Assembly: GCA_902624105.1 (NCBI GenBank)
Contig: CACNWH010000005.1
Coordinates: forward strand, 1-60,469
DNA length: 60,469 bases
Source: an uncultured Prochlorococcus sp.
GTDB lineage: Bacteria; Cyanobacteriota; Cyanobacteriia; PCC-6307; Cyanobiaceae
Direction of reading: 5' to 3'
The notes beneath the pieces were generated by a model that saw only the letters and a program-made list of their open reading frames with translations, ran no database searches and had not been told where the DNA came from. Positions 9,888 to 45,303 of the stretch are shown here, in pieces. The position numbers were made by a program, and so were the translations under genes. How positions within the stretch are numbered: the first letter of the stretch is position 1; each line of letters starts with the position of its first letter.

Positions 9888-10048
9888 ATTTGGCAATATA
9901 GGTAACCGACTCTATAAATTTTGGAGCATCAAAAAGATGTATCCATTAATGGCCAGATAGAACTGAAGGATTTGAGATCTGGGATTTTTTAAAATAATTT
10001 TCTTTCGGTTCAGCTGTTAAAAAATTCTTACACACATATTTTTAGACA
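9888..10048 (+). promoter_or_regulatory. Conserved leader of the SIMPL gene, copy 1
   Basis: This stretch is matched by the reverse complement of 21497-21665, upstream of the second SIMPL gene. Shared blocks include TTGGCAATAT, TAACCGACTC, ATTAATGGCCA (one difference) and TTTCGGTTCAGCTGTTAAA. Conservation of a non-coding leader between paralogues suggests promoter, operator or leader-RNA function. Confidence 0.5.
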
Positions 10049-10831
10049 ATGAAAATCATTAAAAATCTCAGGTCGCTTCCTGGCGATTCTCTGAAAGTTA
10101 TTCGCCGTACCCCGCCACTTGTCTTCGCAATGGCAGTTTTATCTCTTGGAGGATTTATAGGTGCTTCCACTGTCCTTGTGAGAGGGTTCAGGATGGTTGA
10201 AAATACGATAACTGTTACGGGTGCAAGTACTGAAAGTTTTGAAAGTGATATGGCAAAATGGTCTGTCCAGGTTAGGGCTTCAGGGAAGACACAGATTGAT
10301 TCATTCAACAAACATAAACAGTCCATGAAAACCACAATGGACTTTTTGAAAGCAAATGGAATTGTGGATGATTTTAAGCAGGAAGTTTACATTGGACCTG
10401 CGAGTATAAATGAACGTACAACAAAGAATCCAAAAACAAATGAAATCATAAGAACTGAATGGATCACCTACCAGAATATTGAGATTCAAAGCAATGATGT
10501 CTATAGGATTCAGGAGACCCATAGCAAGATAACGGAGCTTTTAGGTAAAGGGGTAAGAGTTAGTCCGAGCTCACCACAATTTACTTATTCGCGACTTGCA
10601 GATAAGAGAGTTGATATGCTCGCAAAAGCTGCGAAGGATGCTCGAGTAAGAGCCGAAGCTATTGCTTTTCAGGCAGGATCTGAAGTAGGTGGTGTTAAGA
10701 AAGTTAACACCGGGGTTTTCCAGATCACAGTTCCAAACTCAACTAGAGTTAGCAGCTGGGGTTCTTACGATACCACAACTATAAAGAAAGATATAACAGC
10801 TGTTATGGGAGTAACTTTTGCAGTTAAGTGA
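10049..10831 (+). CDS. SIMPL-domain membrane-anchored protein, copy 1
   Basis: This is a 260-residue protein. A basic N-terminus (through R-R-T-P-P-L) precedes one transmembrane helix (~25-45), then a periplasmic SIMPL (DUF541) domain beginning ITVTGASTESFESDMAKWSV. SIMPL proteins are envelope proteins often linked to stress tolerance; their activity is not settled. The C-terminal half has the usual K-A-A-K-D-A-R-x-R-A-E-A-I-A helix. The gene converges on a 31/63-residue gene pair. A second copy, about 89% identical in protein (29 differences by my count), lies inverted at 20714-21496. Confidence 0.88.
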   Translation: MKIIKNLRSLPGDSLKVIRRTPPLVFAMAVLSLGGFIGASTVLVRGFRMVENTITVTGASTESFESDMAKWSVQVRASGKTQIDSFNKHKQSMKTTMDFLKANGIVDDFKQEVYIGPASINERTTKNPKTNEIIRTEWITYQNIEIQSNDVYRIQETHSKITELLGKGVRVSPSSPQFTYSRLADKRVDMLAKAAKDARVRAEAIAFQAGSEVGGVKKVNTGVFQITVPNSTRVSSWGSYDTTTIKKDITAVMGVTFAVK

Positions 10832-10835
10832 TGTG

Positions 10836-11564: not shown

Positions 11565-12341
11565 ATGAGTATTAAAAGATTTTTTAAGAAATATTTTTTT
11601 GTAAAAATAAAAGAGGAAGGATTCTCTTTTATTGAAATTATTTTAGTCATAATGGTTATTTCAATAATTACAAAAATTTCTTTTCCATTTTTTAATTTAA
11701 GTAAGAATAAGGTGAAACAAAAAGAAGCAACTTTAATAATTAATTCACTAATTAAAGCCGCAAAAGCTAATTATGCTATTAATGCTTATTTGCCTGAAGA
11801 TATTAAAGATATAAGCAAATTTGTATCTATAAAGCAATGTAAAAATAATGAAAACGATTTGAATAAAAATTCAATGTGCTATGCAAATAATAGTGATAAT
11901 AATTTTTACTCATCTTCTGGAGAATTTAAAATTGAATTTAGAAATTCAAATTCTTCCAAATTTCATAAAACATTTCAAGCCAGAGCGATCCCAATTGGTG
12001 ATATTTTTAAGAACCAAGGCAGTAGCGTGGTTGGTTGCTTTAATCCTTTAAGCGGAATCTCTTTCATAAAAGAATATTCTGTATTCAATACAGGAGCTCA
12101 ACCTTTTAATTCTTGTCTTACTGCCGAAGAAGAAAGACTCGCTGAAGAAGCAAGACTAGCCGAAGAAGAAAGACTCGCTGAAGACGCAAGACTAGCCGAA
12201 GAAGAAAGACTCGCTGAGGAAGCAAGACTCGCTGAGGAAGCAAGACTAGCCGAGGAAGAAAGACTCGCTGAAGAAGTAAAACCAAAGTGTTTACGTTGGA
12301 GCACAAGGCCTCCATTTTATTGTATGGTTTCTCAAAAATAA
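11565..12341 (+). CDS. Type IV prepilin-like protein with a charged repeat tail
   Basis: This is a 258-residue protein. A basic leader (residues 1-19) precedes the prepilin peptidase site G-F-S-F-I-E, with Glu at +5, followed by the hydrophobic helix IILVIMVISIITKIS. It is therefore a class III signal protein destined for a type IV pilus or competence pseudopilus. The globular part has paired cysteines. Residues ~187-237 are a run of R-L-A-E-E/D repeats, likely one long charged helix, followed by a cysteine-containing C-terminus. The repeat tail is not typical of pilins. It converges on a beta-barrel protein gene 10 bp away. Confidence 0.8.
   Translation: MSIKRFFKKYFFVKIKEEGFSFIEIILVIMVISIITKISFPFFNLSKNKVKQKEATLIINSLIKAAKANYAINAYLPEDIKDISKFVSIKQCKNNENDLNKNSMCYANNSDNNFYSSSGEFKIEFRNSNSSKFHKTFQARAIPIGDIFKNQGSSVVGCFNPLSGISFIKEYSVFNTGAQPFNSCLTAEEERLAEEARLAEEERLAEDARLAEEERLAEEARLAEEARLAEEERLAEEVKPKCLRWSTRPPFYCMVSQK
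12122..12273 (+). repeat. Tandem in-frame repeat in the prepilin gene
   Basis: About eight units of 18 bp (GAAGAAGCAAGACTCGCT-like) encode E-E-A/E-R-L-A. Units differ mainly at synonymous or Ala/Glu positions, and adjacent identical units suggest slippage expansion. The repeat also opens long antisense frames that I regard as artefacts. Confidence 0.85.
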
Positions 12342-14138: not shown

Positions 14139-14183
14139 TGCCCTCGTCGGGACTTGAACCCGAGACCTCACCCTTACCAAGGG
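14139..14183 (-). repeat. Distal attachment site: tRNA-Thr 3' duplicate
   Basis: 45 bp identical to 45432-45476, the anticodon-loop-to-3'-end part of tRNA-Thr(GGU). It breaks off at the anticodon stem, so no tRNA is made. It marks the far end of the integrative element. Confidence 0.93.
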
Positions 14184-14250
14184 AAGAATCTACTTTATTA
14201 AAGCAAGTTTTTGCAGTAGTTTAAAGAGCAAGATATCTTATATATTACTT

Positions 14251-14296: not shown

Positions 14297-14638
14297 ATGC
14301 ATAAAAGAGCAACCAAACAAGAAACTGACTTAAGAGTTGCACATGCTGCTGGATTAGTTGCTGAAGGACAAGCCTACTCATCTATTACTTCCCTTGTTTC
14401 CGAAAAATATGGAATCTCAAGAAGAAGAGCAAGGCAGATCACTTCTAATGCTTATCTTTTGCTGAAAGATGATATTGAGGAGGGGGACTTAAATCGTCCT
14501 GAAATGACAGCAAAATTAGTATGCACTCTAGAAACTGCAATGTTTAGAGCAATGCAAGAAAAACAATATTCAGCAGTTGCAAGTAATGCAAAAGTTCTTA
14601 TGAAATTAGTTGGATTAGAAGCAAAAGTAAAAAGTTAG
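14297..14638 (+). CDS. Terminase-small-subunit-like DNA-binding protein
   Basis: This is a 113-residue, mostly helical protein. An HTH-like part (SSITSLVSEKYGISRRRARQ) is followed by a C-terminal helix pair (L-E-T-A-M-F-R-A-M-Q-E-K-Q-Y-S-A-V) ending K-L-V-G-L-E-A-K. This layout resembles phage small terminase or similar packaging-recognition proteins. If right, it could direct packaging of the element by a helper phage, as in phage satellites. It could equally be a regulator. It starts 25 bp after the paired 9-bp sites and ends 4 bp before the tRNA-Pro fragment. Confidence 0.5.
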   Translation: MHKRATKQETDLRVAHAAGLVAEGQAYSSITSLVSEKYGISRRRARQITSNAYLLLKDDIEEGDLNRPEMTAKLVCTLETAMFRAMQEKQYSAVASNAKVLMKLVGLEAKVKS

Positions 14639-14642
14639 AGCG

Positions 14643-14689
14643 GGTGCTTTGGGAGCACTAGGTCGCAGGTTCGAATCCTGTCGCCCCGA
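14643..14689 (+). repeat. tRNA-Pro(UGG) 3' half, left end of nested element
   Basis: Anticodon stem and loop (GTGCTTTGGGAGCAC, anticodon TGG), T-arm (GGTTCGAATCC) and 3' acceptor to GCCCCGA are present, but there is no 5' half or D-arm. The first 37 bp (14643-14679) recur exactly at 17057-17093. This is an attachment-site remnant, not a working tRNA. Confidence 0.88.
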
Positions 14690-14740
14690 TCAGTCATAGC
14701 AATGGAAGTCAGATATTGCATAAAAATGACCGCAGCGAAA

Positions 14741-14761
14741 GCGGTCAAATAGCGGTCAAAT
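14741..14761 (+). other. Paired 10-bp sites, left end of nested element
   Basis: GCGGTCAAAT, one base, GCGGTCAAAT. An inverted GACCGC at 14728-14733 adds dyad symmetry. The same pair with the same 11-bp spacing occurs at 16949-16969. Confidence 0.78.
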
Positions 14762-14862
14762 TACTAAAATAAATAATTCAATACTAAATCTAGACATAAA
14801 GAATGAATTCATCTAGTTGAAGCTAGCTATATTTGTGATAAGTGATCAAAGGAGAAAACTAT

Positions 14863-16926
14863 TTGGCAGAAGTTATTTTAGAAAATTTAAAATCGTCCGA
14901 TCAAGAAAATCAGCAATTAGTGTCTCTAGGAGAACAAATTAGAGACTCTCTAAATATTGAATGCAATAATTCTTCTGGCTGGATAAGAATTTACCTCGGT
15001 TTTAAAACTCAATATAGTAGAAGATCAGATAATGATATTGTTATTTTTGGAGACTTGAATGGAAAATATAAAGAAAGTTCAGAAAATTTTCTAATTGGCA
15101 CTTTTGCCTCAGTTATCGAATGTAAGGGGCATGTCACATCTTTTGGTGATGATAAGGATATTTCTATTACAGGTAATAATGTTGAGGTTAGATATCGAGA
15201 TAGAAGAACAGGCGGTTATTACTGGTCGAGCGCCTCTGATCAGGTCGCAGATTGTGCCAGAGGTATTAAAAAAGAAATTGGAATTAGGATTCAAATAAAT
15301 ACTTACATAAATGATTTCTTATGGCTTTATAACTTAAATGATGAATTTAATAATAATGAAAATATTTTCGGTTCAAAATTCTTACCGAAAAAATTTTTTA
15401 AGAAAATCATATTAGATGCAAAAAATTGCAAGATTGGTACAGAAAAATGTGTTACTAACCATCCTCTTGGGATAATTTATAGGGCAACTAAAAATAAATT
15501 CACCACAAATCTAGGAAATAAATTACTTTTTTATGCAAGGTCATTATCTCCCTCATATTTAAAAAATGATCTTGGTGGTTTAACGAGAAGTCATGTAGAG
15601 AGAATTACTAAAAGTAAAGTTGATAAGAGCCAATACTATTCTCAGATCGGAAATAGAATGATCATTTTTGATGGAGGCCCTGGTACAGGTAAAACAGCAT
15701 CTCTTTTATATTGCTCAAAAAAATTATGTGATGAGGGAAATAAAATTTTACTCCTAACATACAACCACGTTCTCAGATGCGATTTAAAACGATTATTAGA
15801 GTATGCAGAGATGGGAATTATGGAAAATAACGGTGTCCACCCACAAAGCTCAACTAAATTTTTTACTGACATTTTTAGAGAAATATCTCTTGTTAATCCG
15901 GGTGAATTTGGGGAGAATTTCTTAAATAAAGATCCTAAAACCAATATGTCTCCCTATGATGAAGCATTAGAAAAACTATTTAATTTAGTAAAAAAGAAAT
16001 CAACCAACGAAAATAAAAAGATCCTTGATAAGATCTCTCATCTTATTAATTATGACTACATAATGATTGATGAATCGCAAGACTGGTTCAGTCTAGAGAG
16101 AGATATAATTATCAGTCTTTGGACTTCAAAAAAAATTATTATTGCTCAAAGTCCTGAACAATTAACAAGAGGCTCTATAGACTTTACAGATTGGACAAAA
16201 TATCTTCCAAAAAGAGAAGATTTTAATAAGTTACCAAGAAGAAAATCTTTAAGACAAAGAAAGGTACTTGTAAACTTTAATAAGGTTTTTATGAGTGATT
16301 TGCAATATCAATCTGCATCTCTTGAAGAAGAACCTGACATGGGAGGAGGAAAAATAATCTTATGTGAAGGAATATACACTTCGAAAATGCATGATTTCAT
16401 TTCAGAAATTCATGCAAAAGGTTCAGAAAAGAAATATGACTTTTCTTTTGCCTGTCATGCAAAATTGGGGAATAACACAAATGGATTTTATAAGTCTAAA
16501 GATTTTCATAAAGAAGGCATTCCACTTTGGGATGCTTGTAAAACAGATGTTAGACAATTAGCACCTATTGGAAATGATTTACATCGAATGATGTTTTATG
16601 AATCTTGTCGAGGGATAGAATCATGGACATTTGTCTGCTTAGAATATGACAGGTGGTTGGAGGAAATAGTTACACCAAGATCTTATGACGATTACAGAAA
16701 TTCTACAAAGCAGTTAAAGTTGAATATTTTTGATGCGGCTGATATAGACGATGAAGAGACAACCGTTAGGAAATTAATTGCGCGTTGGGCATTGATACCA
16801 CTAACAAGAGCAGTTTCCACTACAGTAATTCAAATAACTTCAAGAGAGAGTAAGTACGGGAAACTTATATTTTCTGCACTTGAAAAAATTCCTGAAGAGA
16901 ATTATCAAGTATTAAGTTCCTCATGA
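14863..16926 (+). CDS. Nuclease (NERD/PD-D/ExK-like)-SF1 helicase fusion
   Basis: This is a ~687-residue candidate anti-phage effector. The N-terminal part has a restriction-like core (D58-I-V, then E86-C-K88). It is followed by a UvrD-like SF1 helicase with Walker A GGPGTGKT (271-278), Walker B Y-I-M-I-D-E-S-Q-D-W, and late motifs E-S-C-R-G-I-E-S-W and L-T-R-A. Nuclease-helicase fusions are frequent in defence systems such as Nhi and Gabija-type pairs; I do not claim membership of either. The frame opens at GTG 14842, but AAAGGAG eight bases before TTG 14863 favours the latter. It is the sole cargo of the nested tRNA-Pro element. Confidence 0.78.
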   Translation: MAEVILENLKSSDQENQQLVSLGEQIRDSLNIECNNSSGWIRIYLGFKTQYSRRSDNDIVIFGDLNGKYKESSENFLIGTFASVIECKGHVTSFGDDKDISITGNNVEVRYRDRRTGGYYWSSASDQVADCARGIKKEIGIRIQINTYINDFLWLYNLNDEFNNNENIFGSKFLPKKFFKKIILDAKNCKIGTEKCVTNHPLGIIYRATKNKFTTNLGNKLLFYARSLSPSYLKNDLGGLTRSHVERITKSKVDKSQYYSQIGNRMIIFDGGPGTGKTASLLYCSKKLCDEGNKILLLTYNHVLRCDLKRLLEYAEMGIMENNGVHPQSSTKFFTDIFREISLVNPGEFGENFLNKDPKTNMSPYDEALEKLFNLVKKKSTNENKKILDKISHLINYDYIMIDESQDWFSLERDIIISLWTSKKIIIAQSPEQLTRGSIDFTDWTKYLPKREDFNKLPRRKSLRQRKVLVNFNKVFMSDLQYQSASLEEEPDMGGGKIILCEGIYTSKMHDFISEIHAKGSEKKYDFSFACHAKLGNNTNGFYKSKDFHKEGIPLWDACKTDVRQLAPIGNDLHRMMFYESCRGIESWTFVCLEYDRWLEEIVTPRSYDDYRNSTKQLKLNIFDAADIDDEETTVRKLIARWALIPLTRAVSTTVIQITSRESKYGKLIFSALEKIPEENYQVLSSS

Positions 16927-16948
16927 ATTTAATACTTAATATAAAATT

Positions 16949-16969
16949 GCGGTCAAATTGCGGTCAAAT
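16949..16969 (+). other. Paired 10-bp sites, right end of nested element
   Basis: GCGGTCAAAT, one base, GCGGTCAAAT, lying 20 bp after the nuclease-helicase stop and 87 bp before the right tRNA-Pro core. Orientation is the same as the left pair. Confidence 0.78.
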
Positions 16970-17056
16970 ATTGCTTTATTTGATAAGACAAAACGTGCAG
17001 TACCTAGCAAGAAATAAGTTATAGCTTAAAAACCTAGTGATGCTAATGGGGCGTGC

Positions 17057-17093
17057 GGTGCTTTGGGAGCACTAGGTCGCAGGTTCGAATCCT
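17057..17093 (+). repeat. tRNA-Pro(UGG) fragment, right end of nested element
   Basis: 37 bp identical to 14643-14679. It is preceded by GGGGCGTG (17048-17055), which resembles a tRNA-Pro 5' acceptor, and followed by CAATGAC instead of the 3' acceptor. The D-arm is missing, so it is a decayed tRNA or att scar, not a functional tRNA. Confidence 0.85.
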
Positions 17094-17533
17094 CAATGAC
17101 TATTATTGAAGATAGTCATTATCCCGGGTTCTATATCTTCTAATAAAAAACGTGCCTTATTTTTTTTTAACCATAAATTGATTTTTGCGTCATCAAATTT
17201 ATTGAAAATAACTTTATTCTCAACATCTTGATCTGGGAAGGAGTTATAGTCATAACCGATATAATATTCCCCTAATTGCCCTCTTACATATTCTCCATCT
17301 ATCTCATCCATGTAGTCATCTTCATCATCTTCTACTTGAATGTCCCCTATTTCGCCAAGGCGGCGAGGTGTTCCTAAAGAGAGAGAAAAAGTGTCCTTAT
17401 CAATTTTACGTAGCAATAAACAAATATCATCGGTGTAACCTGGGTAAATAGCATCTTCCCAATAGTAAACTTCTTCGCAATTCCCGATTTTCATTTTTTC
17501 TCCGAAAGTAATCCAAGATTTCAGATAAGTCAT
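17093..17533 (-). CDS. Acidic hypothetical protein ending at the att scar
   Basis: This is a 146-residue soluble protein with a very acidic middle (Q-V-E-D-D-E-D-D-Y-M-D-E-I-D-G-E-Y). The stop codon TGA uses the last base of the 37-bp tRNA-Pro repeat, so the C-terminus may have been cut and re-ended by insertion of the nested unit. I recognise no family. It lies 40 bp downstream of the 327-residue gene on the same strand. Confidence 0.6.
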   Translation of the reverse strand: MTYLKSWITFGEKMKIGNCEEVYYWEDAIYPGYTDDICLLLRKIDKDTFSLSLGTPRRLGEIGDIQVEDDEDDYMDEIDGEYVRGQLGEYYIGYDYNSFPDQDVENKVIFNKFDDAKINLWLKKNKARFLLEDIEPGIMTIFNNSH

Positions 17534-17573
17534 TTTGTAATCGTTTTTAGTTCAAAGGGATGGAGAGTGATAT

Positions 17574-18557
17574 TTAAATTAAAAGTTCTAGTGTTCCTTT
17601 TTTGAAGTCATCTACTGATGCAATTAAACAACCTGTGGTAGCAACTCCTTCAAACATCCAATTTGCTGCTTCTTTATGCAAAGGTGCTTGAGGTTCTTCA
17701 GATAGTACAGAACAACAGTACCAAGGGTTTAATTCCCAGAGACTATCTCTACTCCACATAATAGAAAAGAGTGAATATACTTCTTGATGATTTGCTCTCT
17801 GAGTTGATTCAGTAAATGAGCACACATAAAAATATATTTTTTTTGTGGAGTATTTTTTGTTCACATAAGTTGCGACTTTAATAGTATCTGAAGGTAAGGA
17901 ACTCTCTAGATTATTAAAGTTAGTTGATTCATAAAAATCTTCTTTTGGTGTTTCTCTCTCACCCAAAATACCGAATGCCATACCAAAAGCCTGCACCTCG
18001 TCATACCCAGATATTTTTATTTGATAAGTTTCTTTTTTTCCTAAATTTAATAACTGTTCCTTTTTACGTTGAAATTCTTCTTCACTTATTATAACTTGAT
18101 CTTTTTTTACATTAAGACCTGGATCCACCTTATTAAGACCTGAATCCACCTCATTAAGACCTGGATAAATTCCACTCCGCTCAGCCGAATCAGGTGTAGG
18201 AACAATACACAAGGCAAGACCACTTATTTTGCCTTCTTTTATAGAAGCATAAGCGACTCCAAGTAGATTAGATTTATCGCCCTGAGCCATGATAAGGCAA
18301 TCAGTATGTCCATAGGCTGGGCAGACGCCTAATTCTGCATAAACAGCGCTCTTAGTTTTTTTTATTACTTCAAGTTTTGGTCTGATATATTCAATGAACT
18401 CATCTTTTGAGTTCATATCGGTTAGGACTTTTTGTGAGGAGTATGAGAAGTCTTCTGCCAAAAACGATTCAAATTCAGATGAATCAAGAGTGTGCATCAT
18501 CCTCGCATAGATACTTAATGCTTCCTTTTCTGTTATTTGAGAAGTTTCTTTTCCCAT
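17574..18557 (-). CDS. Hypothetical protein with SnoaL/NTF2-like start and repeat linker
   Basis: This is a 327-residue soluble protein. Residues ~10-120 (ALSIYARMMHTLDSSEFESF and on) resemble a small NTF2/SnoaL-like domain. A linker at ~130-150 has three G-L-N-x-V-D units encoded by 21-bp tandem repeats (18111-18167). The C-terminal half has many cysteines and tryptophans but matches nothing I know. It is probably cotranscribed with the following acidic protein gene. Its role in the element is unknown. Confidence 0.6.
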   Translation of the reverse strand: MGKETSQITEKEALSIYARMMHTLDSSEFESFLAEDFSYSSQKVLTDMNSKDEFIEYIRPKLEVIKKTKSAVYAELGVCPAYGHTDCLIMAQGDKSNLLGVAYASIKEGKISGLALCIVPTPDSAERSGIYPGLNEVDSGLNKVDPGLNVKKDQVIISEEEFQRKKEQLLNLGKKETYQIKISGYDEVQAFGMAFGILGERETPKEDFYESTNFNNLESSLPSDTIKVATYVNKKYSTKKIYFYVCSFTESTQRANHQEVYSLFSIMWSRDSLWELNPWYCCSVLSEEPQAPLHKEAANWMFEGVATTGCLIASVDDFKKGTLELLI

Positions 18558-18710
18558 TAATCAAAAAATAAAATATTAAAAACTAGAGGTCCTATCCTCT
18601 GCCATTTAGATTGACTTTAATTCAAAATTAGAAAATTAGGTCAATAAACATTCAAATTAAATTAATTAAAAGTTGTTTGATGTATTTTAAAGATATCCCC
18701 TAAAAATATT

Positions 18711-19631
18711 GTGGCTGAATTACCAAAGTTCCATGAATTTATGAGACCTCTTTTGGAAGTACTTATTGAGAATGGAGAGATGCACAGGCATGATGCTGTT
18801 GCTGCAACGATAAAGAAAGTTGGATTAACAGAAGAACAGAAGTCTATATGTCATGAGACTAATGGAAAATTTATAGCTCAAGAAAGAGTTGGTTGGGCAT
18901 CTTCTTATTTAAGTCAAGCTGGATGTTTGGAGAGACCTAAAAGAGGATATATGGCACCTGGTAAAAACGCTAAAGCATTTTTAGACCTTAATAGACCAAT
19001 AAAAGTAGCTGATGTTAAATCAACCAATGAGTGGAAAGCTTTAAGAGCTGCCAAAATACAAGCTGGAAATAATGAAATTGATTCTTCTAATGAACTTGAA
19101 GATGAAACCCCACAGGACCTTATAAATAAAGGCGTGAAGATTTTGCAGTCTCAATTAATTGATGAAATACTTATACAAATAAAAACAATAAGCCCAGCTT
19201 CCTTCGAAAGCTTAATTTTGCAAGTCCTTGCGAAAATGGGATATGGAGGCGGGGATGCAAAAAGGATTCAAGGTGTTCCTAGAGGACCAGATGGAGGAAT
19301 TGATGGGATTATTGACGAAGATAAGCTTGGGTTAGATCAAATATATATTCAAGCAAAAAGATATAGCGAAAATTCTGTAGGAAGACCAACTGTTCAAAGC
19401 TTTATTGGAGCAATGACTGGTGGTGGTTGTAGAAAGGGAGTTTTTGTAACAAGTAGTACTTTCACTTCAGAAGCAAAAAAATTTGCAGAAGGCTTAAATG
19501 ATGTTCGTTTAGTATTGATAGATGGTTTTGATTTGGCGAAATTAATGATTGAGCATTCTGTGGGAGTTCAAGTTAAGGAAACGATTAGAGTTGCAAAGAT
19601 TGATCAGGACTTCTTCAATGGTGATGAATAA
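18711..19631 (+). CDS. mrr: Mrr-type restriction endonuclease
   Basis: This is a 306-residue protein matching Mrr architecture and length. The N-terminal winged-helix Mrr_N domain (residues 1-95) includes AQERVGWASSYLSQAGCLER. The catalytic Mrr_cat PD-(D/E)xK domain spans ~155-300, with E166, D198 in G-P-D-G-G-I-D-G, and Q214-A-K216. Mrr enzymes cleave DNA carrying certain methylated bases (type IV restriction). The start is GTG with no clear Shine-Dalgarno. Its presence next to a BREX operon that methylates host DNA implies that its specificity avoids the BREX mark, or that it is silent. Confidence 0.88.
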   Translation: MAELPKFHEFMRPLLEVLIENGEMHRHDAVAATIKKVGLTEEQKSICHETNGKFIAQERVGWASSYLSQAGCLERPKRGYMAPGKNAKAFLDLNRPIKVADVKSTNEWKALRAAKIQAGNNEIDSSNELEDETPQDLINKGVKILQSQLIDEILIQIKTISPASFESLILQVLAKMGYGGGDAKRIQGVPRGPDGGIDGIIDEDKLGLDQIYIQAKRYSENSVGRPTVQSFIGAMTGGGCRKGVFVTSSTFTSEAKKFAEGLNDVRLVLIDGFDLAKLMIEHSVGVQVKETIRVAKIDQDFFNGDE

Positions 19632-19661
19632 AAATTTGATCGATTCTTTATCTATTAAAAA

Positions 19662-20708: not shown

Positions 20709-20713
20709 TTCAA

Positions 20714-21496
20714 TTATTTAACAGCGAAAGTTACTCCCATTACAGCAGTAATATCTTTCTTAATTGTTGAAGTATCATAAGATCCCCAACTGCTTACTCT
20801 AGTGGAATTTGGAACTGTGATCTGAAAAACACCAGTATTTACTTTCTTCAAACCTCCTACTTCAGATCCTGCCTGAAGAGCAATAGCTTCAGCTCTGATA
20901 CGTGCATCTTTTGCAGCCTTGGCGAGCATGTCTACTCTCTTATCAGCAAGCTTTGAATATGTAAATTCTGGAGAACTTGGTCTTACTAAAACACCTTCTC
21001 CAAGAAGTTGAGTTATCTTGCTATGGGTCTTTTGAATGCGATAAACGTCATTGCTTTGGATTTCAATACTCTGATAGGTAATCCATTCCGTTCTTATAAT
21101 TTCATTTGTCTTCGGATGCTTGGTTTCATATTCCTTGATGCTTGCTGGTCCAAGATAAACTTCTTGTTTAATGCCATCTTCAATTCCATTGGCTTTAAGG
21201 AAATTCATAGTCTTTTTCATTGACTCTTTGTGCTTGTTAAAAGAGTCAATTTGAGTTTTACCAGTAGCCCTGACCTGAACGGACCATTTGGCAATATCAC
21301 TTTCAAAACTTTCCGTACTTGCACCCGTAACAGTGATGGAATTTTCAACCATCCGAAAACCTCTTACGAGAACTGTTGATGCTCCGATAAAACCACCAAG
21401 TGATAATACAGCCATCGCAAAAACAAGAGGTGGAGTACGACGAATAACTCTCAGAGAATCTCCAGGTAGAGACCTGATATTTTTTAAAATTTTCAT
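20714..21496 (-). CDS. SIMPL-domain membrane-anchored protein, copy 2
   Basis: This 260-residue paralogue of 10049-10831 has the same layout: basic N-terminus, transmembrane helix at 25-45, periplasmic SIMPL domain. The open frame extends 17 codons further (to 21547), but the aligned start M-K-I-L-K-N-I-R-S-L-P-G-D-S and the conserved non-coding leader fix the start at 21496. It lies inside the integrative element, whereas copy 1 lies outside, so the element has captured or shared a host module. Confidence 0.87.
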   Translation of the reverse strand: MKILKNIRSLPGDSLRVIRRTPPLVFAMAVLSLGGFIGASTVLVRGFRMVENSITVTGASTESFESDIAKWSVQVRATGKTQIDSFNKHKESMKKTMNFLKANGIEDGIKQEVYLGPASIKEYETKHPKTNEIIRTEWITYQSIEIQSNDVYRIQKTHSKITQLLGEGVLVRPSSPEFTYSKLADKRVDMLAKAAKDARIRAEAIALQAGSEVGGLKKVNTGVFQITVPNSTRVSSWGSYDTSTIKKDITAVMGVTFAVK

Positions 21497-21665
21497 TTTA
21501 TTTTGGTACGTGGGTAGGAACTTTTTAACAGCTGAACCGAAAGACAAATATTAGAAAATCCCTGACTTATAATCTTTCAGCTCTTTTTGGCCATTAAGGG
21601 AAACATCTATTTTTGATGTGCCAATTTTGGAGTCGGTTACTAATATTGCCAAAACAAATTCTTCT
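21497..21665 (-). promoter_or_regulatory. Conserved leader of the SIMPL gene, copy 2
   Basis: This is the reverse-complement counterpart of 9888-10048 and shares TTTCGGTTCAGCTGTTAAA, TAACCGACTC and TTGGCAATAT. Conservation extends about 170 bp upstream of the start and then stops. Confidence 0.5.
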
Positions 21666-21722: not shown

Positions 21723-24059
21723 TTAATCTATATTATTTTTTATACTTTTAAAAAATTCTATAAGCTTTTTGAATCCTGAGCTATACATATTTTTACCCCT
21801 TTCATCTAGCTCCTTATTTTCGGGGACCGATAACCAATGATCCTTAAGTTCATTTAAATCCTCATTCCTTACTAATTCATCAACTGATGAATAGTTAGGT
21901 TTCATCTTTAATAATTCATTTGTTATTTTATAAACCGCACTCGTATATTTGCCAATACTATTTTCACTTAGTTCTGTTTCTTTTCTCATCCATTCAGAAA
22001 ATGGTGCATCATACATAAAAGTTTTTGCGAAACTCAATCTATTCCAAATTTTTATATCGATATTTGCATAAAAGTCACTCAAATTAATTGAACTAAAAAC
22101 TTCTTCATTAATAAATTTAAAAATTCTTTCAGTAGGAACTTTGCCTTGTGCAATTTCTTGAAATTCTGCAATTATTCTTTCATCACTCATTCCTAAAGCT
22201 GATAAAACAGTAACAATTTGCTTGAATGCATTTTCTTGAAGAGAACTTTTATCTTCTTCATCTAGTACAACAGGCAAAATTATATATCCAAAATTCTTAT
22301 TTTTTGATAATCTCATCGCTCTCCCTGCTGCTTGAACAATATCAACTTTGCTATGTTTAGGATCAGCAAAAAGAACAGCATCTACTTCTGGAATATCAAC
22401 TCCTTCGGTTAAACATCTTGCATTTGTAATTAAGCTTGGTTCTTCATATGTGAATCTATTTATTACTTCTGACCTTATGCCAGTGCTAAATTTCCCCGAG
22501 ATATGAAAAGAATGCAAATAACCATATTTTTCGCCTAATTTATTAACTTCTTCATTTAATTTGCAAAAATCTTTTGCCCTTTTGATATTCCTATGAAAAG
22601 AAATAATATGCTTTATATTTTTTTCTTTTATTATCTTTCTTAAGGTTATTAATGCTGCAAATGTTGAAGCATCTGCCTCGAAAGAAAATAATCTATTATC
22701 CGAAGATACTATTTCATTATTATCTATGAGTTCTTGTATCTGTTTTTTAGAAATTAGGGCTGAATAGATTCGATAATCAGAAAGTATAGGGGGATTTTGT
22801 TCTAGGGCGGATTTAAATGAAAATTGATCAACAACTTTCCCATAAATTTCTTCATCATCCATAGAAACAATATTCTCAGAATCGCCTTTAAAAACTCTTT
22901 CTGTCGCTGTCATAAATAATCTTTTTTTTACTGAAATATTTGAATCATAAAGAAGTTGAGCAAAAGGTTTATTTTTATTCCCAACTGTTTTATGTGCTTC
23001 ATCAAAAATACCAATATCAAAAATAATATTTGAATTTTCTACTGACTCAATTAATTTTTTACCACTTTGATAAGTAGTAATGACAATTTTAATTTTTTGG
23101 GAATTTTTTTGAAGAAAATCAGAAATTAATTCTTTATCAGTGTTTACTTCAATTCCTAAATCAAATTTATTTATTGCAGGATCATCTAAATTTTTTACAT
23201 CATCATCACTACAAACAGCTATCCAATCAATTTCTATACCTTCACACATAAATTCTCTGGCCCAAGTTTTTAAAGTTTGCTTTACGAGCTGAAGACTTGG
23301 AACAACTATTAGAGCATTATTCCCTTTCATGTTTCTAAAGAACCAATATCCAGTTAAACTTTTTCCTGAGCCACAGGGATGAATTAATTTACCTCTTGAT
23401 TTATTTTTAAAATAAGAATTACAGTTCTCAAGAGCTATTTTTTGATGTTCTCTAGGTTCGTATTTCTTAAGGTTTACTTTCTGATTATCTAAAATTGAAT
23501 GAAAATTTTTAAATTCTTCATTGTCTAATTGTGAAAAATCGGAATAAGTTATAAAGCCTAATTTTTCTTTATGAACAGTAGAAATTTTTTTACTTACTTC
23601 TAAAGCAGATGAACTTATTATCCTGTGTCTGATTTTTTGGTAAGTTACATCTCTTTCAGTAATACTAAAAAAAGTACTTACTTCGTCATAAGAAATATTC
23701 TTATGGACATCATCATGATACTTGCATTGAATTGCCCAAATATTACCTTCATTTGATTCTGCTATAAAATCAACGCCAATTTCAGGCCTTTGTAAATCTA
23801 ATGAATCAAAAACTTTATGAGGGACATTAGAGTGATGCCATAAATTAGTTAATTTGCTAGAAAAAATTGGATTATTTATGAAATATAGGGAAGTTAATAA
23901 TTCAAATACATCACCCTTCTTTTTATTGTTTACAGGATCAGATCCAAGTTTACTAATCTGAGCCGAAAATTCATCCCAATTATGAGATGAAAGCACCAAT
24001 TCTTTTGTTTCATGCTTTTTAAAAATATCAATATCTTGTACTGATCTTGCAGAAAGCAT
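21723..24059 (-). CDS. Restriction-nuclease-DEAH helicase fusion
   Basis: This is a 778-residue protein. The N-terminal Mrr-like nuclease domain has E53, D97 (I-G-V-D-F) and Q111-C-K113. A SF2 helicase follows with Walker A H-P-C-G-S-G-K-S (~227-234), Walker B D-E-A-H (353-356), and motifs V/VI T-E-G-V-D-I-P-E-V-D-A-V and Q-A-A-G-R-A-M-R-L. A helical C-terminal domain follows. This resembles the nuclease-motor half of single-chain type I-like (type ISP) enzymes but has no methyltransferase. It could be a stand-alone defence gene or use the neighbouring PglX mark. It lies downstream of brxL, separated by the GIY-YIG remnant. Confidence 0.8.
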   Translation of the reverse strand: MLSARSVQDIDIFKKHETKELVLSSHNWDEFSAQISKLGSDPVNNKKKGDVFELLTSLYFINNPIFSSKLTNLWHHSNVPHKVFDSLDLQRPEIGVDFIAESNEGNIWAIQCKYHDDVHKNISYDEVSTFFSITERDVTYQKIRHRIISSSALEVSKKISTVHKEKLGFITYSDFSQLDNEEFKNFHSILDNQKVNLKKYEPREHQKIALENCNSYFKNKSRGKLIHPCGSGKSLTGYWFFRNMKGNNALIVVPSLQLVKQTLKTWAREFMCEGIEIDWIAVCSDDDVKNLDDPAINKFDLGIEVNTDKELISDFLQKNSQKIKIVITTYQSGKKLIESVENSNIIFDIGIFDEAHKTVGNKNKPFAQLLYDSNISVKKRLFMTATERVFKGDSENIVSMDDEEIYGKVVDQFSFKSALEQNPPILSDYRIYSALISKKQIQELIDNNEIVSSDNRLFSFEADASTFAALITLRKIIKEKNIKHIISFHRNIKRAKDFCKLNEEVNKLGEKYGYLHSFHISGKFSTGIRSEVINRFTYEEPSLITNARCLTEGVDIPEVDAVLFADPKHSKVDIVQAAGRAMRLSKNKNFGYIILPVVLDEEDKSSLQENAFKQIVTVLSALGMSDERIIAEFQEIAQGKVPTERIFKFINEEVFSSINLSDFYANIDIKIWNRLSFAKTFMYDAPFSEWMRKETELSENSIGKYTSAVYKITNELLKMKPNYSSVDELVRNEDLNELKDHWLSVPENKELDERGKNMYSSGFKKLIEFFKSIKNNID

Positions 24060-24142
24060 TTCTTCAAAACTTTTTAATTAATATACATAGAAACAAATAT
24101 AAAAACAAAATATAAGCTACTAGAAATTTTGAATTTATTTAT

Positions 24143-24340
24143 TCAAAAATGATAAGGCCTATGGTCATTAACCTTAAATCTTATTTGTGATTCACCAATC
24201 GATGTATATTTATTTGCTAATTCGGGATCAAATTTCAATAAAGCATTTTTTGTAATTTGTCTCTTTTTTTTTCTTTTCCAAGAACATATATCCTTTATTA
24301 CATGGTTTTCACTAATTAAAACTTTTATTTTTTTGAATTT
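24143..24340 (-). pseudogene. Second copy of the GIY-YIG gene 3' end
   Basis: The minus-strand frame encodes ~65 residues ending in a TGA at 24143-24145. It aligns with the C-terminus of the GIY-YIG protein (37629-38669): I-K-D-I-C-S-W-K-R-K-K-K, Q-I-T-K-N-A, Q-I-R-F-x-V-N-D-x-R-P-Y-x-F. The DNA has diverged (for example L-K-F-D for L-K-Y-D), so it is not a fresh duplication. With the intact gene it brackets the BREX operon as a direct repeat. Confidence 0.85.
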
Positions 24341-24347
24341 TAGTTGT

Positions 24348-26456
24348 CTATGTACGAATAAAAGTTATTTCTGAGCCCTTAGTTAGTCTTGCTTCTTGTA
24401 AATTAGTTTCTGCATTTAAAACTGAGCTTTCGAAATATTGAAAAATATCAAGGCCACGATCCAGACTAATTTTCCACCCATGATCAGTAGTTATGCTGCG
24501 AGCATGGAAATTATTACTGGCATCAAACTCAAATGTAAAAGGTGTAGCAGTTTGGGAGAATGAATCCTTAATTTGATTAAGATTATCCATTTGCTTTTCA
24601 AATTTTTCTTTATTTTCGTTTTCGGCACTTGTAATTAAATGGATTTTTACTTCATCACCATCTGGAGTTAATTCATTAACTATGCGAAGAAATTCAACCA
24701 AATTACGCATCTGATAGAAAGCACGAATATAAGGATCTCTTATAATTATTTCTTTACTACCTAATATATATTCTCCAAAAATTTTTTTATAACTCCAGTT
24801 TTTACTATTTTCCGGGATGACAATATGACACTCTTTTGGAGTTTTTGATATTTGAGATAAATCGAGATTTTCAAATTGATTTTTGGCATCCCCTTTGGAA
24901 TTAGTTTTTTCATCAGTTTCTAGAGTTTTTTCAGGAAACTCGGATTCTTCAGAGCTTTGTTTGAATTTTGAAAATTGTGGGTATTGTATTTCTTCGGGAG
25001 TACGCACTTGTTTTGAAACTTCACTATTTAGTGGTTTATATATGAATTCATTTGAGTTGAAGGTTGAATCAATTCGAAGAATTTGATCTCTTACGCGTTT
25101 GCGACATTCCATTGAAAATTCGAGTAATTCTTCTATCTCTTCCTTTGTCGCTTTTTGATCAGGATGAATAATTTTCATTAAACCAGAAAAGGTTTTCTCA
25201 AAACCAGTTTGGTCCCTTGTAGAAACTTCTGATATAATTTCAAATTCTTTTTTATAAAGTGATGTATAGTCTTCAGTTCTAAGATGCTTTAAAACCTCGG
25301 CGATATAGTCAACAACGAAGCCATAACTTGAAGTAAATAGGTCATGACGAACAGGTTGAACTTCCCATCCTGGGCTAAAAGCATGAATACGATCTAAAAA
25401 AGCAGAATCTATATATTTATCAGGTAATGGTTCATAAAAATGCGAATGTTTAAGCATATAGGCAACAGACTTTTGTGTATTACCCATAAAGACCATAGAT
25501 GCTTCAGCAGATAATTGTTCAATACCTCTTGAGAAAGTTCTATTCGCCATATAATTTTTCATTATGTCAACAAGTGCTTTATCGACCTTCTTATCTTTAC
25601 CTGCAAATTCATCAAAGCAAATGCAGTCCCAATAGCCTACTAATCCTATTTTCCCATTGGAGTTACTTACAAATAGCTTAGGACTAGTTACTTCTGAACC
25701 TGAAATTAACATCCCGTGAGGGGAGAACTCTGCATAAACGTGAGATTTGCCAGTCCCTTTTGGGCCAAGTTCTATAAAGTTATAATTGCGCTCACAAAAA
25801 GGTATTAATCTTATCAGAGAAAGTAGCTTAGCTCTACGCGTAAATTGCTCAGGATTAAAACCAATGCTTTGCATTAATACATCAATCCATTCATCGGTAT
25901 TAAAATTAGATCTTGCTACTAAAAATTCATCGTAGTTAACGTTAGCAACTTGTATTGGTTTAAGACTTGCTATTTGCCAAGGACTTGCTTTCGGTTCTAT
26001 TGGTAAATCATATTCAACATCTGATATGGCCCAAATCCCACCGACAAGAAGCTTTGGAAATCTTTTAACATAAGAATCATCTATTGGAACTTTCTTGATT
26101 CCGAGGTTAGTAAATTCTGCTTGATGGAAACCCTCCTTGTCGTTAAATGAGACTATTAATTTATCAATTACCTTGTGATTACCGCGGTCTTTTATAGTGG
26201 ATTTGATTAACTCGGATTGGTTCCTATGTACATAATGTTTTGACAATATACGTCTAACTGTTTCTAATCCTTCTTGAATTTGTTGTGGATCGTCTGTTGC
26301 GCAATGTTGTCCTAGTAAGTATTCAAGTACGTAAGTTGGTACTACAGCATTCTGTTTGAGTTCAGCAGTAAGATCCTTTCTTACAACTAAACCAGGAAAA
26401 TATTCTAAGATCTTATTATTCAGAACCTTTTGTGAAGAAGAAATACTTGTAGTCAT
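24348..26456 (-). CDS. brxL: BrxL-family BREX AAA+ protein with MIT_C-like C-terminus
   Basis: This 702-residue protein is the last gene of the BREX operon. The N-terminal two thirds is the BrxL ATPase: Walker A GPKGTGKS (231-238), Walker B C-I-C-F-D-E-F-A-G (~278-286), with the surrounding G-S-E-V-T-S-P-K-L-F-V. BrxL is needed for phage exclusion but not methylation in studied type 1 systems. After a charged linker (~495-560), residues ~560-700 resemble the C-terminal phospholipase D-like domain of MITD1 (T-T-D-H-G-W-K-I, R-G-L-D-I-F-Q). I see no Lon protease Ser-Lys dyad motif. Start is ATG, 6 bp after the pglZ stop. Confidence 0.9.
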   Translation of the reverse strand: MTTSISSSQKVLNNKILEYFPGLVVRKDLTAELKQNAVVPTYVLEYLLGQHCATDDPQQIQEGLETVRRILSKHYVHRNQSELIKSTIKDRGNHKVIDKLIVSFNDKEGFHQAEFTNLGIKKVPIDDSYVKRFPKLLVGGIWAISDVEYDLPIEPKASPWQIASLKPIQVANVNYDEFLVARSNFNTDEWIDVLMQSIGFNPEQFTRRAKLLSLIRLIPFCERNYNFIELGPKGTGKSHVYAEFSPHGMLISGSEVTSPKLFVSNSNGKIGLVGYWDCICFDEFAGKDKKVDKALVDIMKNYMANRTFSRGIEQLSAEASMVFMGNTQKSVAYMLKHSHFYEPLPDKYIDSAFLDRIHAFSPGWEVQPVRHDLFTSSYGFVVDYIAEVLKHLRTEDYTSLYKKEFEIISEVSTRDQTGFEKTFSGLMKIIHPDQKATKEEIEELLEFSMECRKRVRDQILRIDSTFNSNEFIYKPLNSEVSKQVRTPEEIQYPQFSKFKQSSEESEFPEKTLETDEKTNSKGDAKNQFENLDLSQISKTPKECHIVIPENSKNWSYKKIFGEYILGSKEIIIRDPYIRAFYQMRNLVEFLRIVNELTPDGDEVKIHLITSAENENKEKFEKQMDNLNQIKDSFSQTATPFTFEFDASNNFHARSITTDHGWKISLDRGLDIFQYFESSVLNAETNLQEARLTKGSEITFIRT

Positions 26457-26462
26457 TTTTTA

Positions 26463-29006
26463 TTAGAAGTCCTCGAAGTCATTGCCAAATGGTTGAAGTA
26501 ATTTTATTTCCCTTGTTTGATAGGGAACTGGTGTTTGTATACCTTCTTTCAGTTGTTCAAATTTTAATTCCAATATCTCGTTATTGTAACCTCCTGCAGT
26601 ATTTGTTAAATTGATTTCAATTTCTTTTTCTCTTTCTCGAGGTTCTATTGCCTCTGACTCTAAAGATACAATTTTTGGAACAGAGAGATGAGCATTATCT
26701 TTTTTTGCTATTACACTTATTTTAAGCTTCAGAGGCAAGCGACTTTCTTTCTTACAGGGTTCATCCTGAAATAGAAAAAACTTTATGCGAGGAGTAGTTA
26801 TTTTAACCGGGACTCTTAACAATTCTGCTTTTACTTGTTGTATTTCTACTTTAACAATCTTTTTTAATCTAATTACTGGAATGACAATTTCTTGAAGGGA
26901 AGTCCCTCCATGAACAAAGCGATTCCCAGAACCTGATTTTGGAAATCGATTAAGTCCGAGAGGGAAAGCTGCATCCCATTCTCCCTCTAAGCCCAGTTGA
27001 TTTGCAGAGAAAATCTTTACTCCTGACTCGGCCTTTATATTATTTCCCATAGCAAATCTTCTCTTCTTAATACTCATATCATCGGCTGCAGGGAAGTTAG
27101 AACGATCGTTTTCGTAGACAGGTTCTTGTTGAAAAAGGAATCCATGATCTGCTGTTATGATCACTTGGCTACCTTTTAAGCTACTTATCTTTTTTAGTAT
27201 CTTCTGAAGATCTTCGAAAGAATCCTCTACTGCTTCGCAAGTATCAGCCTCACTCTCAAGCTTATCGCTAATACGATCAATGCGATTGTGATAAACAACT
27301 ATAAGATCATTATCTAAAATAATCTGTGCAGCTTCTTTGGTTGTGGAGAGGTTGAGAAATTCTTCAGATTGAATCGCTTTTGATCGACCCTTGTGGTATT
27401 CCTTAAAAAATTTATCACGATTTTCAGTACCTGAAACGCTCTTACCATCTACTATCGCGGGTGCATTTGGATCTGAAATATTAATATTAATTTTATTCCC
27501 GGGCAGAAGAGAGGCCATCCCTAGTTGTGTGTATGAAGGTAATACACCAAGTAATGCATTTATCTTTGCGTCCCAACTCTTACTTGATTGGCTGTTTAAT
27601 CGGTCAACAAAATCATGGGCCGCTTCGTAGCGAAGAGCATCAGATATTACAACAAATAATCGCTTAAGTTTGGAAGAACTTAAAGGGGTATGAATGTAGG
27701 TTTTATGAAAAGATTTTTGTGAATGTAAATTAACTGAACTCCAGTGGCTTAGATCTTTGACATGATCACTCCACTGATTTGTAAGTGGACGCAATGCGTT
27801 ATTTAAATATTGATTCTCAACCCATTCTTTCAAGGGCTTCATTAATCCTGGCTGGCCATAGCTTCGAGTGTGAAAGACACAACATCGATATGTTCTATCT
27901 ATTCGCCACCAATTATTACAGTACTGTTGAAGACCATTTTCAAAACTTTGTACTTTTAAATCATTTTCAATTATGAGATTACGGAGTTCAACAGCCAATC
28001 TTATAGCATCATATGCGTGACTATGCTTCTTATACCAAAAGGAATTTTTTCTTAGATTTATTCTTTCAAGGAGTTCAGAACTATCGTTTAAATTACTAAA
28101 TTGTTGAATTAATTTTCTAATACAGAATAGTTCTATTAGTTCATAGCAATCGTCTTCTAGAGGATTAAATTCATCTTTTTGATCTAAAAGATTATGTTCA
28201 ATCTTTAGTAATTCCGAAAGGAATTTACTCCATTTTATAAATGAGTTATCATTTTGCCTGCTATCCTTCCAATCACTTAAAAAAACTTGAGCATGACTTT
28301 CAAGGTGTCCATTACTACCTAAGCAACTAACAGTATTGAATAATTGCACTGCAAAATCACTTAAACATGGATCATTATTTTGATATCCAAACTTATTACT
28401 TACGGCCTCCCAGAAAAATTCTTTGAGTCCAAAAGCACCAAATAACTCATCAATTTGATCAGATGAATTCGAATCAGTTGGATCATAGATACTTAAGGCA
28501 TGTAGCAATAAATGATCAATCGATGGTGACTGATTTGTAATTACAGCTAGCATTTTTAATCGGACAGCTTTTTCATCATCATTTGGGTGAAAAAGTTCTT
28601 TAAGTTTTTTACAGCGACTTGGTGCTCTAAAGAAGGATTTATGTTTCTGCGCTAGTTCTTTGAACTCAAGAGGAAGTCCAGCCATTTGAATATCTAAGGA
28701 TGCACGATCAGCTTTAAATTCATAGCCAGCAAGTAAAACATCAAGTAACCAATTATTTTCATCCGTTGGTTTGGAGGATCTAAAGTAGAGAAGATATTTT
28801 TGGTCTGAGGATGCTCGGCTGATTTTAACTTTTACAGAAAATTCGTTCCTATCAATAGAATATTTTGTGATATTTGATTCTTTGTAACTATCAAATTCTT
28901 CAGTCCATTCACTTTCCGAGTCATACCAAAAAACTATCCTATGATTATTAAAAGCGTTATTGATACTTTCGTGAATTCGTTTAATTGAGTTAGGCGTTTG
29001 AGTCAT
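26463..29006 (-). CDS. pglZ: BREX alkaline-phosphatase-superfamily protein PglZ
   Basis: This 847-residue protein is the hallmark BREX component. The alkaline-phosphatase-superfamily core is visible: metal-site strand LFVVISDALRYEAA (~residue 450) and I-I-T-A-D-H-G-F-L-F (~615). The N-terminal ~400 residues are helical and the C-terminal ~200 are beta-rich, as in type 1 PglZ. It lies between the GP88-like gene (17 bp gap) and brxL (6 bp gap) in one operon. It probably acts with PglX in the methylation and exclusion complex. Confidence 0.93.
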   Translation of the reverse strand: MTQTPNSIKRIHESINNAFNNHRIVFWYDSESEWTEEFDSYKESNITKYSIDRNEFSVKVKISRASSDQKYLLYFRSSKPTDENNWLLDVLLAGYEFKADRASLDIQMAGLPLEFKELAQKHKSFFRAPSRCKKLKELFHPNDDEKAVRLKMLAVITNQSPSIDHLLLHALSIYDPTDSNSSDQIDELFGAFGLKEFFWEAVSNKFGYQNNDPCLSDFAVQLFNTVSCLGSNGHLESHAQVFLSDWKDSRQNDNSFIKWSKFLSELLKIEHNLLDQKDEFNPLEDDCYELIELFCIRKLIQQFSNLNDSSELLERINLRKNSFWYKKHSHAYDAIRLAVELRNLIIENDLKVQSFENGLQQYCNNWWRIDRTYRCCVFHTRSYGQPGLMKPLKEWVENQYLNNALRPLTNQWSDHVKDLSHWSSVNLHSQKSFHKTYIHTPLSSSKLKRLFVVISDALRYEAAHDFVDRLNSQSSKSWDAKINALLGVLPSYTQLGMASLLPGNKININISDPNAPAIVDGKSVSGTENRDKFFKEYHKGRSKAIQSEEFLNLSTTKEAAQIILDNDLIVVYHNRIDRISDKLESEADTCEAVEDSFEDLQKILKKISSLKGSQVIITADHGFLFQQEPVYENDRSNFPAADDMSIKKRRFAMGNNIKAESGVKIFSANQLGLEGEWDAAFPLGLNRFPKSGSGNRFVHGGTSLQEIVIPVIRLKKIVKVEIQQVKAELLRVPVKITTPRIKFFLFQDEPCKKESRLPLKLKISVIAKKDNAHLSVPKIVSLESEAIEPREREKEIEINLTNTAGGYNNEILELKFEQLKEGIQTPVPYQTREIKLLQPFGNDFEDF

Positions 29007-29023
29007 AGTTATAGATTTGTTCT

Positions 29024-29800: not shown

Positions 29801-29810
29801 GTAATCATAG

Positions 29811-43953: not shown

Positions 43954-45303
43954 CTAAACCTCAATCCTATTTTTTAAATGTCTTTCAAATGCTTTTTCTA
44001 AACAAAGTTCTGTTGTGTAAGAACCATAAAAAGAATTATGCGTTTCTACAGAATGACCCATGGCAGCAGCAGCATCTTTTACTGATATTGGGATAGTGGA
44101 ACCCTTATGACATTGATACGCATATCTATGTCTCAGACTATAAGGAGTTATATCAGGATTAGCTTTAATGATTTCTATCCATACTTTATTCCTCTCGATT
44201 AACTGCCTTAGTGCTTGTCCCACATCACCATATCTATTTTTATCTTTTACCATTTTTATTTGATTTATGACTGGTATAGGCAATGTAATTTTTTCTGATT
44301 CAAAAAGCTTAATAAGTTTTTTGCCAAGATTCTTTTTCTCAATAAGATCCATAGGAAAAACTCTTCTATCCTCTTTTTTAGCTTTTGTATTGATATTATT
44401 TTTGATGTTGCCTACATATAATTTTCCATCAACAACTCTAAGAACCGCAAGTTCAGATAGTCTCAGGCCAAAAATTGAAATCAAACCTACGGCCAGAAAT
44501 AATGAAGAATCTCTTGATTCAAGATCATCTAATAATCTGAGTAAATCATTTTCTTCAATATATGGAGTTAATTTATCTTGTTTGGTTCTATTAGATTTTC
44601 CAATTAGTTCTTTTCTATAGTCTTCGCTTGGTGGTTGCCACCTTTTTTCGTTCTGTGAATGTCTTTCAATTCCATATCTTAAAATTTCACACCAAGCATT
44701 TATGTATCTTTTCTTTTGGTTAGGTTCTATTTCAGTAAGGTATTTATCTGATAATTTCTTTATTAGTTCAACTCCTGTATTAGGTGCGGGAGTATTGTTC
44801 ATTACTTCTAAGAACCTACTAATCCTTCTAGCCCAATCTTTTTCAGTTTTACTGGTAAGACCTTGTTTTGTTTGCATGAATTGATCAACCTTGGATACTA
44901 CATTTAAATATGCTTTTAAATCCTTTTCATAGTTTGCATCCTTTTTATTTATGGGCCTTATCAATAAGAAATCATTCCAACTTTTATTTGGTTGTTTCCT
45001 TGATTCTCCAATGAATTGAGCCTTCCATCTTCTAGTGGCCTCTTTAAGAGTTAGATTTTTTTCAACTATTAATGGTTTTATAAATTCGATAGCTTTAAGA
45101 ATTTCTATCCCTGAGGTTTTCTTCCATTCTATTGGTAAGGTTTGAGAAGTTCTTTTATTGGCAGAACCTAATCCTTCGTTATAAACATACAAAAGTTTGG
45201 TTCTGCCACTATTTTCGCCATTCACCCTAAATCCACGACCAAAATTAGTGCAGATATTTTTTCTTAACTCTTTTTCCCAAGAAGTGCAGTTAACACTTGT
45301 CAT
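43954..45303 (-). CDS. int: Tyrosine recombinase (integrase)
   Basis: This 449-residue phage-type integrase has a C-terminal catalytic domain with the first Arg in G-L-R-L-S-E-L (~residue 280), H-x-x-R box L-R-H-R-Y-A (~391), G-H-S near 420 and the nucleophile tyrosine in F-Y-G-S-Y (~427). An N-terminal SAM-like arm-binding region lies at ~145-230. It sits beside the tRNA-Thr target and its ATG is 11 bp from the paired 9-bp sites, so it may repress itself. It most likely catalyses movement of the 31-kb element, and possibly of the nested one. Confidence 0.93.
   Translation of the reverse strand: MTSVNCTSWEKELRKNICTNFGRGFRVNGENSGRTKLLYVYNEGLGSANKRTSQTLPIEWKKTSGIEILKAIEFIKPLIVEKNLTLKEATRRWKAQFIGESRKQPNKSWNDFLLIRPINKKDANYEKDLKAYLNVVSKVDQFMQTKQGLTSKTEKDWARRISRFLEVMNNTPAPNTGVELIKKLSDKYLTEIEPNQKKRYINAWCEILRYGIERHSQNEKRWQPPSEDYRKELIGKSNRTKQDKLTPYIEENDLLRLLDDLESRDSSLFLAVGLISIFGLRLSELAVLRVVDGKLYVGNIKNNINTKAKKEDRRVFPMDLIEKKNLGKKLIKLFESEKITLPIPVINQIKMVKDKNRYGDVGQALRQLIERNKVWIEIIKANPDITPYSLRHRYAYQCHKGSTIPISVKDAAAAMGHSVETHNSFYGSYTTELCLEKAFERHLKNRIEV

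Follow-up and report, generated by a model that had tools for sequence, protein, structure and literature searches.

Short tRNA-Pro-bounded gene units with matched end doublets in Prochlorococcus: candidate cassettes for recombinases encoded elsewhere

Partial tRNA-Pro repeats were reportedly noted in Prochlorococcus islands by Coleman et al. (2006), an account that is not known to include an end code or an analysis of units, and tycheposons are said to have been described by Hackl et al. (2023, Cell). In integrons, small promoter-poor gene units form a polar cassette array at one anchor and the recombinase lies outside the unit. Tycheposons are presented as elements of 4-200 kb that carry a recombinase (PMC10872708). 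CIMEs derive from ICEs or IMEs, keep attL and attR without an integrase, move in cis and form tandems by accretion (PMC5704250). A T7-like cyanophage has an integrase gene as well as an attP whose sequence is the same as a segment of a host tRNA gene, and it needs the two for integration (PMC8776855).

Here we describe a 2451-bp unit within a 60,469-nt stretch of DNA (the window) from an uncultured Prochlorococcus sp. (assembly GCA_902624105.1, contig CACNWH010000005.1), together with related units across the genus. Shared with tycheposons are attachment at a tRNA, the Prochlorococcus host, tyrosine recombinases (YRs) and cargo genes. The window unit is inserted at a tRNA gene segment, with a 37-bp tRNA-Pro core at both ends, but it has no YR gene, its sole ORF being a helicase, and it falls below the tycheposon size range. 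As in an integron, the units form a polar array at one anchor and the mobilising recombinase is proposed to lie outside the unit; integron cassettes, however, use attC, whereas the site of these units is a tRNA core accompanied by arm motifs in double-stranded form, and to our knowledge no integron integrase is present here. The units are mostly shorter than 4 kb and lack a recombinase, in contrast to tycheposons as described (PMC10872708). The window unit resembles a CIME in retaining attL and attR and in the absence of integration genes; it also holds no conjugation gene, and its ends look phage- or tycheposon-like in origin. CIMEs are described as moving in cis (PMC5704250), whereas here there are sets of differently coded units for which action in trans is proposed. 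The T7-like case concerns tRNA-Leu and whole phages, and the excerpted text makes no mention of arm doublets (PMC8776855). The titles and abstract openings of the literature matches listed describe neither such mini-cassettes nor their doublets, and beside the known partial tRNA repeats and tycheposons the coded mini-cassettes may be a new form.

The source genome comprises 1.10 Mb in 49 contigs and is 67% complete; the window is contig 5, and the intact tRNA-Pro(UGG) gene lies on a separate contig (C17:3561-3634). The initial annotation had described a single nuclease-helicase gene between exact 37-bp tRNA-Pro repeats, with the same doublet just inside both ends and no recombinase, and all of this was borne out (Table 1). 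One 694-aa ORF fills the interval between the repeats. The motif GCGGTCAAAT occurs exactly four times in the window, at 14741, 14752, 16949 and 16960 (0.06 copies expected; at least four in 0 of 100 shuffles), and a 29-nt core pattern searched with up to three mismatches matches the window twice, at the two unit ends. The left repeat, but not the right, extends into the tRNA 3′ end (GTCGCCCCGATCAGT). Contig 30 of this genome carries another unit built in this way, in which Pro segments 1723 bp apart have CCCTCAAA-type repeats inside each end.

Table 1. Features of the window unit and its surroundings (window coordinates).
Feature	Position	Strand	Basis or remark
Partial tRNA-Thr copy, putative far end of a 31-kb tRNA-Thr element	14139..14184	-	One mismatch to tRNA-Thr 45431-45476
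113-aa gene, helical phage-type product; 3′ end abuts Pro core (docking site)	14297..14638	+	
Left copy of tRNA-Pro core, from anticodon stem-loop through T-arm; left end of element	14643..14679	+	Exact 37-nt repeat
Remainder of tRNA-Pro 3′ end, left copy only	14680..14695	+	Compared with tRNA-Pro on C17
Inverted arm-motif copy TGACCGC	14727..14733	-	Precedes left doublet
Left doublet GCGGTCAAATAGCGGTCAAAT, proposed arm-type sites	14741..14761	+	Motif search
Cargo gene, 694 aa	14842..16926	+	ORF, domain and motif matches
Right doublet GCGGTCAAATTGCGGTCAAAT, proposed arm-type sites	16949..16969	+	Motif search
Right tRNA-Pro core, element right end	17057..17093	+	Exact 37-nt repeat
Tyrosine recombinase (YR) of tRNA-Thr element	43954..45303	-	PHROG integrase 1.1e-6; 29% to Pro-type YR

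The partial tRNA-Thr copy and the YR gene beside the tRNA-Thr gene suggest that a 31-kb tRNA-Thr element surrounds the window unit, which would sit 0.5 kb inside it. The unit had previously been read as nested in a larger element, which is apparently a tRNA-Thr one. Within it lie the BREX type 1 genes BrxL, PglZ, PglX, BrxC and BrxB (21723-37472, minus strand), accompanied by a gene for a helicase/Mrr_cat_2 protein; a 258-aa ORF among them gave no match. The 2.55 kb to the right of the window unit (17106-19660), which include a type IV restriction (Mrr) gene, are absent from the corresponding place in three relatives (G541, G421 and G470). Elsewhere in the window, two SIMPL-domain genes (9987-10832 and 20713-21558) are inverted duplicates, 80% alike and about 9.9 kb apart, and tandem 18-nt coding repeats occur at 12105-12300 within ORF 11565-12341.

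The left Pro core lies 12 nt past the last codon of the 113-aa gene, and this left flank is common to relatives. The gene is present in 73 of 265 genomes. At 30 of its loci, a core was found directly behind it in 15, a more decayed core (judged by eye) in 3 and none in 12, and in 5 of the 15 the core leads into an exact unit left end. The identity of the product as a small terminase remains a guess: it has no Pfam or NCBIfam match, and its PHROG is of unknown function. Searches with the sequence found no PDB match at E 1 and no IMG/VR relative. The helical model (pLDDT 82.7) matched no PDB entry at E≤0.001; its best viral match was an uncharacterised phage protein (6.8e-4), and a comparison with a small terminase gave Z 5.7 over residues 9-65, amid unrelated helical entries.

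Across the genus, the core was found with up to three mismatches in 178 of 200 genomes, the tRNA itself being counted, and reached 17 copies in the cultured strain MIT 9302 (G288) and 19 in G395. The window doublet, allowing one mismatch, occurred in 9 of 400 genomes at the level of the family and in 16 of 266 at that of the genus; MIT 9302 holds three short units with the window's arm type. From the 200-genome scan, array loci were chosen from the top of the list and from doublet-bearing genomes, giving 31 loci with 141 sites and 109 consecutive units at spacings of 0.2 to 16 kb. One 208-bp unit was left out, and unit analyses were carried out on the other 108. In the omitted unit (L088 12270, minus orientation) a single doublet acts as the arm for both ends, which resembles an empty cassette. 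Judged with a profile built from array YRs, 103 of the 108 units contain no YR (median 1950 bp), and none of the 92 units shorter than 4 kb holds one. The initial annotation knew of no element with exactly this form; the anatomy stands, but its singularity does not, the window unit being one of a large class found as tRNA-Pro arrays in the genus.

Thirteen arrays begin at a functional tRNA-Pro, with the copies downstream in the same orientation as the tRNA; G220 has additional copies in the opposite orientation, and ARAGORN also labels a few partial copies as tRNA-Pro. The farther a core lies from the tRNA, the more mismatches it tends to have (13 arrays with 104 copies, core search at up to five mismatches, 0 of 20,000 permutations), and this holds without the tRNA copy as well. 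Such decay is absent in G288 and slight in G191, and the polarity could be due in part to gene conversion close to the tRNA.

Moreover, the two ends of a unit carry matching motifs. The best ungapped left/right match averaged 17.6 within units against 9.0 for mismatched pairs (108 units, 0 of 10,000 permutations, which ignore shared ancestry), and some units recur in several genomes; in 20 units from later-fetched loci the values were 20.0 and 10.1 (0 of 10,000). The match exceeded the 95th percentile of mismatched pairs in 71 of the 108 units, and for 38 a unit's own right end ranked first. When it had to exceed the 99th percentile of windows taken from unit interiors, a doublet of 11-bp period was detected at the left end of 64 units, the right end of 66, both ends of 54 and either end of 76, leaving 32 with none. 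The doublets are concentrated at about 40, 63 and 85 nt past the core and at about 113, 124 and 152 nt ahead of it. The end motifs differ between units and include, besides that of the window, CCCTCAAAA, GCACGCAAAT, GCCGACAAAT, GTGGACAAAT and TGGGCGATC. On visual inspection, many left ends also have a hairpin and T run past the tRNA 3′ end.

A comparison of relatives revealed empty and occupied forms of one site. In G541 and G421 a single core lies behind the 113-aa gene and is followed by other DNA, while G470 holds two other, differing intact mini-units between the flanks that it shares with these genomes. When joined at the core, the G470 flanks agree with the site of G541 in 597 of 611 positions. 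The initial annotation had called for a search of other genomes for the same end doublets and a precise empty site at tRNA-Pro; the doublets occur, allowing one mismatch, in the 16 genus genomes above, and this pair shows an empty site behind the 113-aa gene, although for the window copy a matched empty counterpart exists for the left junction only, as its right flank differs and relatives resume at window position 19661. These data bear on whether the units are instead remnants, once complete YR elements that lost their recombinase in a CIME-like accretion and are now immobile. Such decay and tandem accretion is described for elements of this kind (PMC5704250), distal cores are degenerate, and a clear left/right match is missing in 37 of the 108 units. 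Yet many units are compact with exact cores, those shorter than 3.5 kb (n=106) having one ORF of at least 60 aa in 47 cases and two in 28, so that in 75 the intact ends enclose one or two ORFs; moreover, two differing intact mini-units occupy a site found empty in a relative. We regard immobile remnants as a possible but rather unlikely account of the units. It overlaps with mobilisation in trans, since a remnant with intact ends could still be moved that way.

Elements that encode a YR have ends of the same kind. A search at E 1e-10 showed relatives of one array YR in 60 of 151 genomes, and all 27 scored loci have a Pro core at a distance of 75-157 nt from the YR start (3 of 30 failed the ORF filter and were left out). 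In a wider set, a Pro core was found near 35 of 42 YR ORFs, 4 of the 35 being upstream of an intact tRNA-Pro. Doublets at the YR right ends included TTCCGTCAAAA (G365, G464), CCCTCAAAT (G349), GCCGTCAAAT and GCCAACAAAT (G412), GCACCCAAA (G469), GCCGACAAAT (G444), GACGGCAAAA (G045) and GTGGGAAAAA (G425, G389). The doublet threshold was passed by 17 of the 35 right ends and failed by 18, several of which have an inverted pair instead. When units holding a YR were excluded, 28 of 64 unit right ends came within three mismatches of a YR element at another locus, a limit at which neighbouring codes can match each other. The window's exact doublet was found 114 nt before a Pro core in Synechococcus lacustris Tous, a different genus, beside an N-terminal YR fragment that is truncated and internally duplicated, the gene running off the contig end. 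No Pro-type YR was found in the source genome, at its 67% completeness. Six of 14 doublet-bearing loci in genome_contigs were non-cyanobacterial (Rhodoferax, Pseudorhodobacter, Clostridia, SAR86, Chloroflexi and Caulobacteraceae); as a Pro core was found beside none of them, these were treated as unrelated.

Direct repeats near att sites can generally serve excisionases, replication initiators or packaging proteins, and the doublets might be bound by such a protein, in the last case a helper's, rather than by the YR. We consider this improbable, as the YR gene adjoins the doublet in YR elements and the YRs of G365 and G412, which are 97% alike in the catalytic part and 62% in the N-terminal part, have differing doublets. 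Such pairs are few, and they hint that the doublet code follows the N-terminal part of the YR.

Copies of the core with the tRNA 3′ end were also found on twenty IMG/VR contigs, whose phage status is as assigned by that database; two contain the tRNA 5′ half and are therefore host DNA. A YR is encoded on 17 of the 20, in 16 cases at the core or within 175 nt of it. Three contigs were not usable for a pairing test and seven of the remaining 17 were near-duplicates; in the ten non-redundant contigs the motif before the core matches that after the same core (0 of 20,000 permutations), two of the ten being near background. Flanked on either side by a shared motif, these single cores have the look of an uninserted attP. 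The window's exact doublet gave no hit in the IMG/VR scan. Plain homologous recombination between the tRNA repeats, which are at least 37 bp long and mostly in one orientation, would shuffle genes and make the doublets incidental, and is very improbable given matched, unit-specific doublets at fixed distances that recur in YR elements and viral contigs, and left/right matching that, contrary to its expectation, is better than in mismatched pairs.

Taken together, the matched doublets, the like-ended YR elements, the viral attP-like copies and the empty/occupied pair support the minimal integrative element mobilised in trans that the initial annotation had proposed. The window unit is probably a non-autonomous element of this kind, which YRs binding its doublets would move. 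Its ends would be the two halves of an attP, with the tRNA-Pro anticodon-to-T-arm segment as core and the GCGGTCAAAT doublets and inverted left copy as arms. A YR encoded by a relative that shares the arm motif would attach to the doublets in trans through its N-terminal domain and exchange strands in the core, excising a circle. This would insert at another copy of the core, either in the functional tRNA-Pro or at a docking core like that which follows the 113-aa gene in the tRNA-Thr element, and the window copy may itself be mobile at present. Repeated insertion at the tRNA would build a polar array of small cassettes, the newest adjoining the tRNA.

To a wider reading we give roughly even chances: marine picocyanobacteria may have an integron-like system without an integron, in which tRNA-Pro is the anchor, the cassettes lack a YR, an arm code selects the YR and co-evolves with its N-terminal domain, and docking cores in tRNA-Thr elements carry cassettes between cells. 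The movers would then be many co-circulating YRs from larger elements or phages. If true, this would account both for the coming and going of single genes at the tRNA-Pro island of this phototroph, which is abundant in the ocean, and for the pile-up of partial tRNA repeats there, and the doublet would predict which recombinase moves a cassette.

Lastly, the cargo was examined. The 694-aa protein has an E-x-K nuclease-like stretch, a Walker A motif at residue 278 and DESQD at 410, as in SF1-type helicases. The unit had been called defence-carrying, and the protein does match Nhi, AbiO and NERD-UvrD proteins, but weakly and in part (best 5.7e-8 over residues 390-488). Among 400 Cyanobiaceae the search returned the gene itself and one weak partial match, and IMG/VR held no relative; a single-sequence AlphaFold model was discarded (pLDDT 33.5). 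Ten chosen cargo proteins of other units matched Photo_RC, PBP_like_2, N_methyl, PhoH, Sulfotransfer_1, FAD_binding_2/Succ_DH_flav_C, Cytochrom_B559, DUF4268 and, below threshold, TPR, one of the ten having no domain match. Cargo is also found under differing codes, a 95-aa stretch being 95% identical in GTGGAC-type and TTAGGGAAA-type units. A photosynthetic reaction-centre (psbA-type) gene (L090:10790-11869) is the only gene of a 2.3-kb unit whose two ends match, and a cytochrome b559-like gene is common to GCGGTCAAA-type 2.7-kb units at three loci (L154, L223 and L107).
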